This document shows positions 27,216-34,184 of a stretch of DNA of 64,000 bases, in pieces (position 1 is the first letter of the stretch; each line of letters begins with the position of its first letter). The notes below the pieces were generated by a model that had not been told where the DNA came from, made no database searches, and saw nothing but the letters and a program-made list of their open reading frames with translations. Origin of the DNA: Quadrisphaera sp. DSM 44207 (GTDB lineage Bacteria > Actinomycetota > Actinomycetes > Actinomycetales > Quadrisphaeraceae); assembly GCF_900101335.1 (NCBI RefSeq), contig NZ_FNKA01000004.1, positions 124,001 to 188,000 on the forward strand. The letters run 5' to 3'. The position numbers and the translations under genes were made by a program.

Positions 27216-27674
27216 TCACTCGCGGTACCCGCTGCCGGCGAGGCGGTCGACCGCGGCCGGGTCGCACTCGGCGAGCAGCTGCGCGCACCGGGCGGCCTCG
27301 TCGTCCTCGTCGAGCGCTGCGGCGGCGCGGCCGAGGATCGCGATCGAGCGCAGGACGCCGCGGTTGGGCTCGTGGTGCCACGGCACCGGCCCGGTGCCGC
27401 GCCAGCCGGCGCGGCGCAGCGCGTCCAGGCCGCGGTGGTAGCCGGTGCGGGCGAAGGCGTACGCGTCGACGAACCGGCCGGCGGCGAACGCCTCGTCGGC
27501 CAGCACCGCCCACGCCAGGCTGGACGCCGGGTGGCGGGCGGCGAGCTCCTCGGACGCGACGCGCTCGCGCAGCAGCCGGGCGACGACCGTGTCGGGGTGG
27601 TCCTCGGGCAGCAGCGTTGGCGGCGGGCCGCTCGTGGCCCCGGGCATCGGCAGGGAGTCGGGCATGCCGCTCAT
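27216..27674 (-). CDS. DUF3151 domain protein
   Basis: 152 residues of the actinobacterial DUF3151 family, recognisable by PASSLAWAVLADEAFAAG, AYAFARTGYHRGLDALRRAG and GPVPWHHEPNRGVLRS. The function is unknown; the gene is usually between fba and purA in actinobacteria, both of which are in this window but separated by inserted genes. The ATG chosen follows GGCGGCAGG; an ATG three codons later is possible. Confidence 0.9.
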   Translation of the reverse strand: MSGMPDSLPMPGATSGPPPTLLPEDHPDTVVARLLRERVASEELAARHPASSLAWAVLADEAFAAGRFVDAYAFARTGYHRGLDALRRAGWRGTGPVPWHHEPNRGVLRSIAILGRAAAALDEDDEAARCAQLLAECDPAAVDRLAGSGYRE

Positions 27675-27684
27675 CCTGCCGCCG

Positions 27685-29253
27685 TCAGCTCCGCGACGCC
27701 CGACCGGCGGAGCGGGAGGGACGGCGCCCCGACGACGGCCCCGTCGGCGCGCCCGAGCCGGCGCCGGGCGTGCTGGTGCTGTAGACGCTGCCGTGCCCGC
27801 CCGTGCGGCCCCCGGCGCTGCCGCCCGTGCCGCCGCTCGTGCCGCCCCCGCCACCGCCGCGGCGCCGAGAGCGCGACGCACCACCGGACGCACGGGCCGT
27901 CGTGCCGCCGGTCGCACGGGCCGTCGCGCGGGCCGGGGTCGCCGGCGCGGGAGCGGCCGGGGGCGCGGGCTCCACGTGCGCCGCCCGCTCCCCGCGCAGC
28001 TCGGCGACGACGGGCGAGTCCGCCGTCACCGCGTGCTGCGTGGCCGTGATGCGGGCCTGGCGCATGAGGGAGCGCACGTCCCCGGCCTCGTCCGGCGTCA
28101 TGACGGTGACGACGTCCCCCCCGGAGCCGGCGCGCGCCGTGCGGCCCGAGCGGTGCAGGTACGCCTTGTGCTCGGTCGGCGGGTCGACGTGCACGACGAG
28201 CTCGACCTCGTCGACGTGGATGCCGCGGGCGGCGATGTCGGTGGCGACGAGCACCTTCACGTCGCCGGAGGAGAACGCGGCGAGGTTGCGCTGCCGCGCG
28301 TTCTGCGACAGGTTGCCGTGCAGGTCGACGGCGGGGACGCCGGCGGCCGTCAGCTGCTTCGCGAGCTTCTTCGCCTGGTGCTTGGTGCGCAGGAACAGCA
28401 CGCGCCGTCCGGTGCCCTGCGCGAGCGCGCGCACCACGGCGGTCTTCGCGTCCGGGGTGGGCACGGCGAGCACGTGGTGGGTCATGGCCGGCACCGGCGA
28501 GGCGGCGGGGTCGACGGCGTGCGCGAGCGGGCGCGACAGGTACCGCGTGACGAGGACGTCCACGCCGTTGTCGAGCGTGGCGGAGAACAGCAGGCGCTGG
28601 CCGCCGCGCGGGGTGGCGTCGAGGATGCGGCGCACGCCGGGGAGGAACCCGAGGTCGGCCATGTGGTCGGCCTCGTCGAGCACCGTGACCTCGACGGCGT
28701 CGAGGACGACCTCCCGCTGGCGCATCAGGTCCTCGAGCCGGCCCGGGCAGGCGATGACGACGTCCACGCCGCCCCGCAGCGCCGTGACCTGCCGGCCCTG
28801 CGGCACGCCGCCGAAGACCACGGTGGTCCTCAGCCCGGCCGCCGCGGCCAGCGGCTCGACCGTCGCGGCGATCTGGGTGGCCAGCTCGCGCGTGGGGGCC
28901 AGGACGAGGCCGCGCGGGCGCTGAGGGGCGCGGCGGGTGCCGGACGCCGCGAGGCGGGCGACCAGGGGGAGCGCGAACGCGAGGGTCTTGCCGGAGCCGG
29001 TCTTGCCCCGCCCGAGCACGTCGCGCCCGGCGAGCGTGTCCGGCAGCGTCGCGGCCTGGATCGGGAAGGGGCTGGTCAGGCCGCGGCGGGCCAGGTCGGC
29101 GACGAGGGCGTCCGGCACGCCGAGGCCGGCGAAGGTGGCGCCCTCGAGCGGCGCGGCGCTCGCGGGCGGCGAGGCGGGCGCGGTCCGCGCGGCGGGCGCG
29201 GCGGGGCGCGCCGACGCGGACGGGCGCGGGCGGGGCAGGGCGGTGCTGGGCAC
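27685..29253 (-). CDS. DEAD-box RNA helicase
   Basis: ATP-dependent RNA remodelling enzyme. Q-motif region FPIQAATLPDTLAGRDVLG, motif I GKTGSGKT, Ia APTRELATQI, II LDEADHMADLGFL, III LFSATLDNG, V ATDIAARGIHVDEV and VI HRSGRTARAG are intact. A Gly/Ser/Arg-rich C-terminal tail of about 110 residues is likely for RNA binding. The GTG chosen has GAGAGG upstream; an ATG at 29286 without a ribosome binding site would add 11 residues. The N-terminal 50 residues are Ala/Pro-rich. Confidence 0.93.
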   Translation of the reverse strand: MPSTALPRPRPSASARPAAPAARTAPASPPASAAPLEGATFAGLGVPDALVADLARRGLTSPFPIQAATLPDTLAGRDVLGRGKTGSGKTLAFALPLVARLAASGTRRAPQRPRGLVLAPTRELATQIAATVEPLAAAAGLRTTVVFGGVPQGRQVTALRGGVDVVIACPGRLEDLMRQREVVLDAVEVTVLDEADHMADLGFLPGVRRILDATPRGGQRLLFSATLDNGVDVLVTRYLSRPLAHAVDPAASPVPAMTHHVLAVPTPDAKTAVVRALAQGTGRRVLFLRTKHQAKKLAKQLTAAGVPAVDLHGNLSQNARQRNLAAFSSGDVKVLVATDIAARGIHVDEVELVVHVDPPTEHKAYLHRSGRTARAGSGGDVVTVMTPDEAGDVRSLMRQARITATQHAVTADSPVVAELRGERAAHVEPAPPAAPAPATPARATARATGGTTARASGGASRSRRRGGGGGGTSGGTGGSAGGRTGGHGSVYSTSTPGAGSGAPTGPSSGRRPSRSAGRASRS

Positions 29254-29504
29254 GGGTGGTCGCCTCTCAGGCGGTCGGGTGCGCATCGCGGGGCGATGGC
29301 GGCGGCTCTCGGCGGGTCGCGGCTGCGGGCAGCCTGGACCGGCGCGGCACGAGGAGCACGGGGGTGTCGGCGCTCCCGGCCGCTGGCCGGGCGCTGCCGC
29401 GCACACCCATTGTGGCGCATCGCCCGCCTCGCCGGGGGACCGCCGGACGATCGGTGTGTCATCACCGAGCGTGCACCGTCAGTTGCAGTTAGTGTGGGGC
29501 GGTC

Positions 29505-29876
29505 ATGATCGAGCTGTCCACCACGCCCACGACGGCCACCGTGACCGTCACCGGCGACCTCGACCTCGCCGAGCGGGGCTCCTTCCCGGAGATCGCCGCG
29601 CGGGTGGCGGGGCTGCGCCGCCAGCTGCTCGTGGCGGACCTGTGCGCGACGACGTTCCTGGACTCCAGCGGCGCGGCGTTCCTGATCTCCCTCGCCGAGT
29701 CCGCGCGGCGCCGGGGCGGGGTGGTGGTGCTGCGCGGGGCCAGCGAGCGCGAGCTGTTCGTCCTGGAGGTCTGCGGGGCGCTCGAGAGCTTCCGCGTCGA
29801 CGCCCGGCACCGGTGCGCCGGCGCGCAGGAGGCGCCCGGCCCGTGGCGCCGGCACCCGGACCCCGCCGCCGGCTGA
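29505..29876 (+). CDS. STAS-domain anti-sigma factor antagonist
   Basis: 123 residues of the SpoIIAA/RsbV fold. VTVTGDLDLAERGSF begins the domain; FLDSSGAAFL (residues 51-60) contains the serine phosphorylation site. In partner switching the unphosphorylated form binds the anti-sigma kinase. It lies next to, and converges with, the LOV-PP2C-HATPase gene, whose phosphatase domain would activate it. The last 25 residues are an extra Pro/Ala-rich tail. Confidence 0.88.
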   Translation: MIELSTTPTTATVTVTGDLDLAERGSFPEIAARVAGLRRQLLVADLCATTFLDSSGAAFLISLAESARRRGGVVVLRGASERELFVLEVCGALESFRVDARHRCAGAQEAPGPWRRHPDPAAG

Positions 29877-29916
29877 GCCCGCCGGGGCGGTGGGGAGCGC
29901 ACGGCCGCCGCGGGGG

Positions 29917-32484
29917 TCAGGACGGGTCGCCCGCGGGCAGGGCCGGCAGCAGCGCCCAGACCGTCTTGCCCGCCCCGGAGCGGCGCCAGCCCCACTCCGC
30001 CAGCCGCTCGACCACCTGCAGCCCGTACCCGCCCGTCCCGGGCGCCTCGCCGCCGCGCGGCTGCGGCGGCGCCGGGTTCGCGTCGTCCACCTCCACGAGC
30101 AGCCCTCGGCCGGTGTGGCGCACCCGCAGCCCGACGGGCCCCCACCCGTGCAGCACCGCGTTGGCGACGAGCTCGGAGACCACGAGCTCGGCCTCGGGCC
30201 CGGCCTGCAGCCGCCAGGCCGCGCACGTGGTGAGCACGTGCCGGCGGGCGCGCCCGATCGACGACGGGTCACCCGGCAGCTGCCAGCGCCGCTGGCGCGG
30301 GGTGCCCTCGGGCTCCTGCACGAGCTCCCCGGCCCGCGGCACCCGCACCACGACGACGGCCAGGTCGTCCTCGGGGTCGTCCCCCAGCGCGGCCAGCAGC
30401 TGCTCCCCCACCCCGGCGGCGTCGCTCGGCGCCAGCACCGCGCAGACCTCCCGCAGCCGCTCCAGGCCCGCCGCGAGCGGGCGCGAGCGCCGCTCGACCA
30501 GCCCGTCGGTGTAGAGCACGAGCACGTCGCCCGGCCCCAGGACGACGGACGCCGTCGAGCGCGGCCGGTCCCCCACGCCCACCAGGGTGCCGCCGCGCTC
30601 GTCCAGCAGCTGCACGCCGGCCACGCGCCCGTCGCCGCCGGCGCGCACCAGCACGGGCGGCAGGTGGCCCGCGCGGGTCCAGTCCAGCTCCCACGCGCTG
30701 CCGCCGGCCCCGCCCGGCGGCCCGAGGGGGCGCAGGCGCCCGTAGACCATGCTCGCGGAGCGGGAGATGCGCATGCCGTTGACCAGCTGGTCCACGCGCA
30801 TGACGACCGTGCCGGGCTCCTCCTGCTCGAAGGCGTAGGCCCGCACCACCGAGCGCAGCTGCCCCATGGACGCCGCGGCCTCCACGTCGTGGCCCACGAC
30901 GTCCCCGACGACGAGGCCGACCGCGCCGCCGCCGAGCGGCAGGACGTCGTACCAGTCGCCCCCCACCTGCGCGTGCTCGGCGCTCGGGGCGTAGTAGGAC
31001 CACAGGTCCAGGCCCGGCACGGCCAGGTGCTCGGGCAGCATGCTGCGCTGCAGCGTCTCGGCGAGGGCGTGCTCGCGCGCGTAGAGGCGCACGTTCTCCA
31101 GCGACAGCCCCACGCGCCGGGCCACCTCGCCGAGCAGCGCCGCGGCGTCCTCGCCCGGCGGGGCGTCCGCGCCGAGCAGCAGCAGCGCCAGCGCGCCGCG
31201 CCGGCCGGGCACCGCGATCGCGGTGAAGGCGTCCTGGCGCGCGGCCCCCAGCTCGCCCGCCACCCAGCGCGTCAGCGTCCCCGGCGCCCAGCGCTCGCGC
31301 AGCGACGCCGCGACGGGACCGGCGGTGGTGCCCGCGAGCAGGCCGCCGAGCGGGTCGTGCTCGCCGCCCGGGAAGCCGCCGCGCGGCACCGGGAAGGAGC
31401 TGCGGCTGACGCCGTCCTCCACGCCCACGGCGGCCACGACCCGCACGCCGCCGTCGACGAGCAGCACCGCGGACCACTGCGCGCGCCAGCCGCTGTCGCG
31501 GCTGGCGACCAGCACCTCCGCGACCTCGCGCAGCGCGGAGGGGGAGTCGAGCTCGGCGACCGCGTCGGCGACGTCGGCGAGCAGGGCCAGGCGCGAGCGC
31601 GCCTCGCGCTCCGCGGCGAGCGCGGCCATGCGCTCCTGCTGCACGAGCACGCGCGGGGTGACGTCGGCCTGGACCCCGACGTAGCTGACGAGGCGGCCGC
31701 CGGCGTCGAAGACCGGTGAGAGGGACAGCTCGTTCCAGAAGGCCGTGCCGTCGGCGCGGTAGTTCAGCAGGGTCTCCACGACCCCCTCCTCGCGCTCGAG
31801 CGCCCGCCGGATGCGGCCCACGGCGGCGGGGTCGGTGTCCGGGCCCTGCAGGAAGCGGCAGTTGCGCCCCAGCGCCTGCTCGGGCGGGTACCCGGTCGTC
31901 GCCGTGAACGCCGGGTTCACCCACACCAGCGGCAGGTCCTCCTGGGAGGGGTCGCTGATGGTGAACGCCAGGCCCGTGGCCACCAGCGCCCGCTCGCGCA
32001 GCTCGTGCAGCCCTCCGGACGCCGCGCCGGCCGGGACCGGCGCCGCGACGGGCACGAGCAGGACGAGGGCGGTGTCCTCCAGGCCCGGCGGCGCCGCCAG
32101 CGGCAGCGGCTCCAGGGCGCCCAGCGGCAGGCCGGTCACCCACAGCGGCCCCGCCAGCCGCGACGGCCCGGCGCTGCGGCGCGGGTCGCGGTGCACCAGC
32201 TCCCCCGCCACCGGCTCCCCGAGCGCCGAGCGCGCCACCGGGCCGGCGGCGGAGGACAGGGCCTGCCCGGACGGCGCCGGGTGCCCCGACGGGGTCGACA
32301 GGCCGGCGCGGCGCGCCCACTCCTGCGCTGCCAGCGGCAGGGACTGCGGGCCCGCCAGGGCGGTCGCGGCGCGGTTGGCGTGCAGCACGGCGCCGGTCGT
32401 CAGGTCCACCAGCAGGACGGCGACACCGGCCTCGTGCGCCAGGCGCGACAGGGCGCGCGCAGGGGGCTCCTGCACCTGGCTCAA
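29917..32484 (-). CDS. LOV-GAF-PP2C(SpoIIE)-HATPase photosensory phosphatase/kinase
   Basis: 855 residues. A weak PAS-like segment (about 1-150), a LOV domain (about 170-285) with the flavin-cysteine motif GRNCRFLQ (Cys209), a GAF domain (300-470), a SpoIIE-type PP2C phosphatase (485-690: GGDWYDVLPLGGG, VVGDVVGHDVEAAASMGQL, LYTDGLVERR) and a C-terminal RsbW-like ATPase (720-855: VVSELVANAVLHGW, GTGGYGLQVVERLAEWGW). Blue light would change phosphatase or kinase output on STAS partners. The TTG start is chosen because AGGAG lies eight bases upstream. Two STAS genes flank it. Confidence 0.9.
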   Translation of the reverse strand: MSQVQEPPARALSRLAHEAGVAVLLVDLTTGAVLHANRAATALAGPQSLPLAAQEWARRAGLSTPSGHPAPSGQALSSAAGPVARSALGEPVAGELVHRDPRRSAGPSRLAGPLWVTGLPLGALEPLPLAAPPGLEDTALVLLVPVAAPVPAGAASGGLHELRERALVATGLAFTISDPSQEDLPLVWVNPAFTATTGYPPEQALGRNCRFLQGPDTDPAAVGRIRRALEREEGVVETLLNYRADGTAFWNELSLSPVFDAGGRLVSYVGVQADVTPRVLVQQERMAALAAEREARSRLALLADVADAVAELDSPSALREVAEVLVASRDSGWRAQWSAVLLVDGGVRVVAAVGVEDGVSRSSFPVPRGGFPGGEHDPLGGLLAGTTAGPVAASLRERWAPGTLTRWVAGELGAARQDAFTAIAVPGRRGALALLLLGADAPPGEDAAALLGEVARRVGLSLENVRLYAREHALAETLQRSMLPEHLAVPGLDLWSYYAPSAEHAQVGGDWYDVLPLGGGAVGLVVGDVVGHDVEAAASMGQLRSVVRAYAFEQEEPGTVVMRVDQLVNGMRISRSASMVYGRLRPLGPPGGAGGSAWELDWTRAGHLPPVLVRAGGDGRVAGVQLLDERGGTLVGVGDRPRSTASVVLGPGDVLVLYTDGLVERRSRPLAAGLERLREVCAVLAPSDAAGVGEQLLAALGDDPEDDLAVVVVRVPRAGELVQEPEGTPRQRRWQLPGDPSSIGRARRHVLTTCAAWRLQAGPEAELVVSELVANAVLHGWGPVGLRVRHTGRGLLVEVDDANPAPPQPRGGEAPGTGGYGLQVVERLAEWGWRRSGAGKTVWALLPALPAGDPS

Positions 32485-32582
32485 CGGCGCATCTCCTGAT
32501 CTCCTATGGTCTACCCGGCCCGCGCGGCGCGCACGGCCGGACGGAGCACCCGACGGAGCACCCGCGGTCACGAGGAGGCACG

Positions 32583-33002
32583 GTGGACGACGGAGGCCTG
32601 AGCGGCGCCGCGGGGGCGCCCGCCGAGCCCGGGTCGGTGCACGTCATCCTGGGCAGCCGCAAGACCCGCGTCGTCCTCACCGGCGAGATCGACGCCGAGC
32701 TGGGCCCCGACCTGCTGGAGGCCTCCGCGGACGCCGAGGAGGCGGGCCGGCCGGTCGAGGTCGACGTCCAGCACGTGACCTTCATGGACTCCACCGGCGT
32801 GGCCTTCCTCGCCCGCCTCGCCTCCCGCTCCCCCCAGCAGCTCGTGCTCATCAAGCCGCCGGACCTGGTGCGCTTCCTCATCCAGGTCACGAGCATCAGC
32901 GAGGTGCTGCGGGTGGTCGAGCAGGACCCGGGCGTGGACAGCACGCTGCCCGACCGCCCGGACGGTCCCGACGGCGATGACCACCCCGACCTCATCGCCT
33001 GA
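32583..33002 (+). CDS. STAS-domain anti-sigma factor antagonist
   Basis: 139 residues with a SpoIIAA-like core: RVVLTGEIDAELGPDLL and VTFMDSTGVAFLARL, where DSTG (69-72) holds the phospho-serine. The GTG follows GGAGG. It is divergent from the LOV phosphatase gene, 98 bases away, so the two may share a control region. The C-terminal tail is Asp/Pro-rich. Second antagonist of the locus. Confidence 0.9.
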   Translation: MDDGGLSGAAGAPAEPGSVHVILGSRKTRVVLTGEIDAELGPDLLEASADAEEAGRPVEVDVQHVTFMDSTGVAFLARLASRSPQQLVLIKPPDLVRFLIQVTSISEVLRVVEQDPGVDSTLPDRPDGPDGDDHPDLIA

Positions 33003-33041: not shown

Positions 33042-34064
<1,023 letters not shown>

Positions 34065-34184
34065 GCCGTTCTCTCCTCGTGATCCGGTGGCGCGCGGTGG
34101 GTGCGGTGGGGCGTGCTCGGCTGTCGGTGCCGCTGATCCTTCCACGGCGGCCCGCCCGAGCAGAACGGACGCCGACCCGCGCTC

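Follow-up and report, generated by a model that had tools for sequence, protein, structure and literature searches.

How might one light-sensing protein set the phosphorylation of two STAS proteins, and where would the signal go from there? These questions are raised by a three-gene locus in Quadrisphaera sp. DSM 44207 (GCF_900101335.1, contig NZ_FNKA01000004.1), analysed here within a stretch of 64,000 nt (positions 124,001–188,000 of the forward strand) that we call the window; all coordinates below are positions in it. The original prediction, made from the letters of the window, had placed a multidomain gene between two STAS genes, and this layout was recovered: positions 29505–33002 hold STAS_A (29505–29876, plus strand; 123 aa; Pfam STAS, E = 9.9e-11), a large sensor gene (29917–32484, minus strand; 855 aa when read from a TTG start) and STAS_B (32583–33002, plus strand; 139 aa; Pfam STAS_2, E = 4e-15). 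STAS_A lies tail-to-tail with the sensor gene, and STAS_B head-to-head. Each STAS protein is a single STAS domain with a serine in a DS(S/T)G motif, FLDSSG in STAS_A and FMDSTG in STAS_B, just as the prediction had it. The sensor joins PAS, LOV, GAF, SpoIIE-type (PP2C) phosphatase and HATPase domains in one chain, and our preferred reading, to which we give a probability of roughly 0.7, is that the locus encodes a light-gated bifunctional partner switch.

Pfam searches with the sensor returned a weak N-terminal PAS match, PAS_9 over the LOV part (6.6e-21), SpoIIE (1.2e-37) and HATPase_c_2 (1.7e-7), and an AlphaFold2 model built on a 31-sequence alignment, window sequence included, reached a mean pLDDT of 86.5 and a pTM of 0.63. 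The LOV domain (residues 156–288; 31621–32019, minus strand) is supported by matches in both sequence and structure, while the predicted SpoIIE-type phosphatase (residues 490–716; 30337–31017, minus strand) and RsbW/SpoIIAB-type HATPase (residues 731–847; 29944–30294, minus strand) are each placed by Pfam, the model and the alignment. Pfam calls no GAF domain in the window sensor and gives a sub-threshold GAF_3 match in the orthologous locus L024; the predicted GAF domain (residues 298–452; 31129–31593, minus strand) was nevertheless borne out when the region was folded alone (pLDDT 89.2), since its top matches in the PDB were GAF domains (Z 11.8, rmsd 3.1, 134 aligned). The earlier domain list had overlooked a PAS-like domain at the N-terminus (residues 8–145; 32050–32463, minus strand). 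This domain matches PAS_8 at 5e-5 (23.5 bits; cut-off 21.8), shows strands and helices in the AlphaFold2 model, and has counterparts with 43–45% identity in loci L022, L202 and L203, and across just 71 residues in L025. The model further contains a long signalling helix (residues 276–309) and a second helix at residues 445–482. Chance resemblance as an explanation for the assignments is ruled out by LOV E-values down to 8.2e-32, by the confident model and by the conserved gene order described below.

The LOV domain carries the motif GRNCRFLQ, translated from 31846–31869, and its cysteine, residue 209 when numbered from the TTG start, aligns with the photoactive cysteine of solved LOV domains (phmmer, E = 8.2e-32), in agreement with the original prediction. 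Residues N208, R210, Q213, N241, N251 and Q272, which we take to be the flavin contacts, are all present, and the modelled domain superposes on MrLOV (Meiothermus ruber) and CagFbFP (Chloroflexus aggregans) to within 0.5–0.7 Å over ~105 residues at ~50% identity. The LOV flavin site is thus predicted to be intact. The phosphatase retains D510, D528, D660 and D706/D707, presumably its metal ligands, and the HATPase retains E771 and N775 of the N box together with G818, G819 and G821 of the G2 box. Across 82 aligned sensors of this cassette, the window's included, one of which (L122) ends at a contig end, the first two metal aspartates are kept in all 82, the LYTDG aspartate in 80 and the DD pair in 81; the N-box residues Glu and Asn, like the G2 glycines, are also kept in 81, the exception being a truncated sequence. 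The DS(S/T)G motif occurs in 80 of 80 STAS_B sequences and in 72 of 73 STAS_A matches, the remaining one (L130) being a segment of residues 75–121 that lies past the site. Catalytic residues and STAS serines are therefore nearly invariant, whereas the photoactive cysteine is not.

On this basis a mechanism is proposed in which blue light would lead to a flavin–Cys209 adduct in the LOV domain, and the signal would pass along the long signalling helix (276–309) to the GAF domain and on through helix 445–482, so that the PP2C phosphatase gains or loses weight relative to the HATPase serine kinase that follows it in the chain. The net balance would set the phosphorylation of the DS(S/T)G serine of STAS_B and, where present, of STAS_A, and the STAS proteins would relay the signal through a partner that they bind or let go; family-wide, this partner is most likely not a SigB/F/G sigma factor. 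The photochemistry, the direction of the light effect, the pairing of STAS substrates with the two activities and the target are all inferred. In a passage of PMC12143880, PPM phosphatases are hypothesized to be switched through dimeric coiled-coil linkers that accept exchangeable PAS or GAF front ends, and the two sensor helices fit this hypothesis.

How far is such a protein already known? The closest structural match overall is the RsbU–RsbW crystal structure of Rv1364c from Mycobacterium tuberculosis (PDB 3ke6; residues 480–848, Z 27.8, rmsd 13.7, 322 aligned), where the large rmsd means that the PP2C and HATPase domains match one by one and not as one rigid body. Rv1364c (PAS-RsbU-RsbW-STAS) shares a PAS front end and a PP2C followed by an RsbW-type HATPase in one chain, an order also given in a passage of PMC12143880, but its STAS domain is fused whereas the STAS proteins here are encoded by separate genes, and it has neither LOV nor GAF. 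The HsbR–HsbA and CrsR–CrsA systems of Pseudomonas and Shewanella likewise combine PP2C and kinase/anti-sigma functions in one protein that sets the phosphorylation of a STAS partner, as outlined in part of PMC6482189; in contrast to the sensor, HsbR takes its input through a receiver domain, both proteins are proteobacterial, and the outputs are FlgM/FliA, a diguanylate cyclase or RpoS. SypE of Vibrio fischeri, according to a passage of PMC10120452, is both serine kinase and phosphatase for the downstream STAS protein SypA, but its kinase is N-terminal, its receiver sits in the middle and it has no LOV domain. The view in the original prediction that phosphatase and kinase in one chain are unusual is therefore not supported, and these four proteins rule out the fusion itself as a novelty. 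The Quadrisphaera genome even encodes at least two further SpoIIE–HATPase pairs in one frame without a stop (L054 and L059), while the two domains of a third pair (L057) lie in different frames.

As for the LOV input, YtvA of Bacillus subtilis also feeds light into a STAS-based system (PMC10949197), but there the LOV domain is fused straight to STAS in a chain that has neither phosphatase nor kinase. SpoIIE-type phosphatases are listed among the outputs of prokaryotic LOV and BLUF proteins in a LOV review (PMC4844311), the relevant passage of which mentions no HATPase domains or STAS neighbours. A literature search found no description of a LOV-GAF-SpoIIE-HATPase protein or of the cassette; the supplementary tables of LOV surveys and most subscription journals lay outside its scope, and a prior listing is possible. 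We read the locus as a bifunctional partner switch of a known type, gated in this variant by light.

A tblastn search with the window domains recovered the same arrangement in relatives. The named genome contigs were scanned with the STAS_B alignment, making STAS_B the query by which loci were found, and the best 80 of the resulting 211 loci constitute the named loci. In 77 of these 80, a SpoIIE+HATPase gene is divergent from STAS_B; two of the exceptions are cut by contig ends (L122 and L129) and the third has no sensor (L087). STAS_A, at ≥45% identity, is present in 73; it shares the strand of STAS_B in 61 of these and is inverted in the other 12. Seven loci lack it, five of them from Kineococcus and the remaining two being those that are cut. 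With cut loci included, the fructose-bisphosphate aldolase gene fbaA is found in 78, the DUF3151 gene in 72 and TrmH in 68. FbaA always lies on the STAS_B side where present, and the two loci without it (L138 and L157) are cut by contig ends. All five of DUF3151, STAS_A, sensor, STAS_B and FbaA occur in 65 loci, in every one of which the sensor separates the DUF3151/STAS_A side from the STAS_B/FbaA side; 54 of them reproduce the gene order of the window exactly, and in 11 DUF3151 and STAS_A have swapped places. An order-wide sample gave STAS_B at E ≤ 1e-30 in 85 of 396 genomes (the window's included), and SpoIIE+HATPase stands beside STAS_B in 38 of 40 loci taken from these, or in 26 of 28 once the 12 that duplicate named loci are set aside. 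A class-wide sample had STAS_B matches at 1e-12 in eight of 296 genomes, of which three were strong, all three from the order of Quadrisphaera and one of them the window's own. The sensor locus is an orthologous, widely conserved cassette.

The two STAS proteins are not equal partners within it. A search for STAS_A at E ≤ 1e-6 came up empty in the three genomes of genus g21 and in eight of the ten genomes searched from the Kineococcus family; the remaining two gave only weak matches (31–35% identity). STAS_B is therefore the constant partner of the sensor, and STAS_A probably a later one. The original idea of two STAS substrates stands insofar as both proteins carry a phosphorylatable serine within a conserved cassette; it has to be qualified in that STAS_A has no close homolog in the g21 and Kineococcus-family genomes searched. 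Separately, in one genome (G027, C347:875–1570; L185) two STAS_B-like genes, 48% and 39% identical to STAS_B, converge on each other, with no cassette sensor match within the 5 kb examined.

Some observations weigh against a light-gated bifunctional switch as we propose it. Both STAS genes stand adjacent and in tandem, with no sensor between them, in eight related genomes: six from genus g2, G002, and G006, to which L087 belongs. The STAS pair can thus persist without the enzyme. Most orthologous sensors have no photoactive cysteine, and light is therefore not the general input of the cassette. Intact domains alone, moreover, would not prove that both activities are exercised. The tandem STAS arrangement was seen at L087 and at L176–L183, in one case with possibly overlapping ends; within genus g3, the sensor is missing in G002 yet kept in G005, G008 and G010.

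The sensor-less STAS pairs are also relevant to the idea that the HATPase is an ATP-binding regulatory or docking domain only, so that the protein would in effect be a light-regulated phosphatase and free-standing RsbW-type kinases would act in trans. Other HATPase_c_2 matches are plentiful, with 25 in the Quadrisphaera genome at E ≤ 0.001, 19 of them over the cut-off and the sensor counted among them, and survival of the STAS genes without the sensor would fit as well. Mere docking, however, would have no need of the N-box and G2 residues that are retained almost without exception, and we regard this explanation as improbable.

The variable part of the cassette is its front end. The photoactive cysteine is present in six of the 82 aligned sensors (the window, L022, L088, L089, L100 and L133) and additionally in the contig-end-truncated gene of L129 as well as in L202 and L203, hence in all three g21 genomes examined. 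Five Cys-less sensors (L104, L150, L127, L130 and L090) are still 47–49% identical to the window LOV domain, with Pro (three), Ala or Val in place of the cysteine. L104 retains N208, Q213, N241, N251 and Q272 and has Ala for R210, L150 retains every flavin contact except N251, and L127, L130 and L090 have lost more, N208 included. LOV relics of this sort, in which Pro replaces the cysteine while the flavin contacts are mostly retained, are seen in some Cellulomonas-type members, and L209 and L216 look similar (GRNPNLL); the remaining sensors have a more distant PAS-like sequence or none detectable. Natural Cys-less LOV* domains in which LOV residues are kept and Cys is replaced by Ala, His or Pro are described in part of PMC4682037, where it is suggested that they may act through flavin reduction. 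The relics found here differ in that they sit in one orthologous cassette beside Cys-bearing orthologs, and in that L104 and L150 are each one further contact residue short.

Was LOV lost from this cassette, or gained? A quick tree of the SpoIIE–HATPase core, weakly rooted owing to very long outgroup branches, places the Cys-bearing sensors outside a 70-row Cys-less clade (Cellulomonadaceae, Promicromonosporaceae and others), with LOV-less Kineococcus and G013 also beside Cys-bearing sisters. The presence of LOV takes at least three changes on this tree, and parsimony alone failed to settle the matter, as losses and gains fit equally by count. In a LOV tree with few strong deep branches, the window domain groups with the g21 domains (support 87/85), and their neighbours, with modest support (83/90), are the LOV domains of further SpoIIE proteins that have no HATPase; this grouping may allow for swapping of front ends. 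A late insertion of LOV into a PAS-bearing cassette, as opposed to an ancestral LOV front end that was later lost, could draw on both trees, since the minimum of three changes can be read as three gains as well as three losses and the kinship with HATPase-less proteins permits domain swapping. Such an insertion does not readily explain why Cys-less L104, L150, L209 and L216 still hold LOV pocket residues, as decay would leave them, nor does it sit easily with intact-Cys rows that all fall outside the 70-row clade, although the root is weak. We consider late insertion possible but the less favoured course: the relics favour loss of LOV over gain, with the same reservation about the root. The cassette is otherwise fixed; it is the front end that varies, and LOV is one of the states it takes.

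Other LOV proteins were found as well. Loci L032–L036 of related genera encode PAS-LOV-SpoIIE proteins with the LOV cysteine intact, in which no HATPase was found. The Quadrisphaera genome holds a second LOV protein of ~843 aa (G000, C2 near 98526; L188:2978–5524, minus strand) with the order EAL-DICT-LOV-GGDEF and the motif GRNCRVLQ, which may be a light-regulated cyclic-di-GMP enzyme.

Partner switches are mostly treated as circuits that control sigma factors, and the original prediction proposed looking for a target sigma factor; that a SigB/F/G factor would be the natural one to seek is not supported by the counts below. In the Quadrisphaera genome, two sigma factors score over the SigBFG cut-off (C1:469361 and C1:1027739), and a sigma factor of this type is a possible target there. 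Of the 80 genomes that hold named loci, 49 were searched, among them that of L087, which has no sensor. SigB/F/G factors were found in nine of the 49, namely Quadrisphaera, two Pseudokineococcus, five Kineococcus and BWSM_131; in the other 40, of unstated completeness, no match was present at E ≤ 1e-45. When the limit was relaxed to 1e-20, the complete genomes G019 and G037 (100% each) showed, like nearly every genome searched, a single match of ~131–134 bits, which is the score range of the housekeeping sigma factor; in G024 there is a second one, of 98 bits, and in G023 (89% complete) there is none. The corresponding match in the Quadrisphaera genome is a frame that ends in a housekeeping-type sigma sequence. 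Conversely, strong SigB/F/G-like factors occur in six genomes that gave no STAS_B match, over the cut-off in G016, G026 and G034 and below it, at 209–220 bits, in G017, G028 and G035. Carriage of the cassette and carriage of SigB/F/G do not go together.

These data bear on a conventional SigB-type switch, in which light would free one of the genome's two SigB/F/G factors from the HATPase acting as its anti-sigma factor. All seven LOV-Cys carriers searched (the window, G005, G008, G010, G027, G029 and G333, the genome of L100) have at least one such factor, the window genome two, and a passage of PMC12143880 counts Rv1364c and OsaC among the documented phosphatases that start a general stress response. 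The co-occurrence is explained equally well by relatedness, because LOV-less Kineococcus and G013 have SigB/F/G factors too. Against a conventional switch stand the 40 genomes with no match at E ≤ 1e-45, the complete genomes G019 and G037 with a single housekeeping-range match each at 1e-20, the retention of the kinase residues in sigma-less carriers, and the lack of any sigma gene inside the cassette. We therefore think it unlikely that the locus works in this way, and, with no SigB/F/G factor found in 40 of the 49 genomes searched, the conserved output is unlikely to be a target of the SigB type. A survey of other HATPase proteins as a route to the target in seven sigma-less genomes gave no lead, with 13 to 21 matches in each (G340, G337, G353, G371 and G366 there correspond to L107, L104, L134, L164 and L155, and G353 is G037).

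Taken as a light-gated bifunctional switch, the locus suggests a tentative history that we would put at a little under even odds. The cassette, at a fixed site in many families of the order, would have begun as a blue-light switch acting on STAS_B and later recruited STAS_A; the Cellulomonas–Promicromonospora branch and the other Kineococcus examined would have lost the LOV cysteine and so been “blinded”, possibly now sensing redox state or a ligand, and the target would be other than SigB/F/G, with a non-sigma output. An output of this kind has a precedent in HsbA, which also acts on a diguanylate cyclase according to a passage of PMC6482189. A partner switch with near-invariant enzymes and serines that persists where no SigB/F/G was found means that its output should be sought elsewhere. 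Intact LOV, Cys-less LOV and non-LOV front ends of one protein form a natural series on the same output, which lets one ask how a photoreceptor converts to, or from, another input, and a LOV protein holding both STAS kinase and STAS phosphatase would be a ready optogenetic part.

In the window, the syntenic borders of the cassette are the class II fructose-bisphosphate aldolase gene (FbaA; 33042–34145, minus strand; Pfam, 2.7e-80) and the DUF3151 gene (27216–27917, minus strand; Pfam, 1.1e-52). A DEAD-box helicase gene (27685–29406) lies between DUF3151 and STAS_A in the Quadrisphaera genome. It was considered as a target of the switch and rejected: no such helicase was detected in any of the 80 named loci (tblastn, E ≤ 1e-10, within ~7 kb of STAS_B at most, some loci being cut), and it is probably a local neighbour.

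The sensor gene could alternatively start at GTG 32571, giving 884 aa; the TTG at 32484 lies 29 codons further in and is preceded by AGGAGATCAGGAG, with a ribosome-binding-like AGGAG read from the sequence. Between this TTG and STAS_B lies a divergent intergenic region of 98 bp (32485–32582), inspected by eye without statistics, which on the sensor strand contains GTAGACCATAGGAG, resembling CTAGACGATCGGAG of relatives. The stretch TAGAC(G/C)AT(N)GGAG, or a sequence near it, is found by eye ahead of the sensor start across several genera, in the window and in L023, L024, L088, L025 and L100, and may represent a promoter −10 element plus ribosome-binding site, or an operator.

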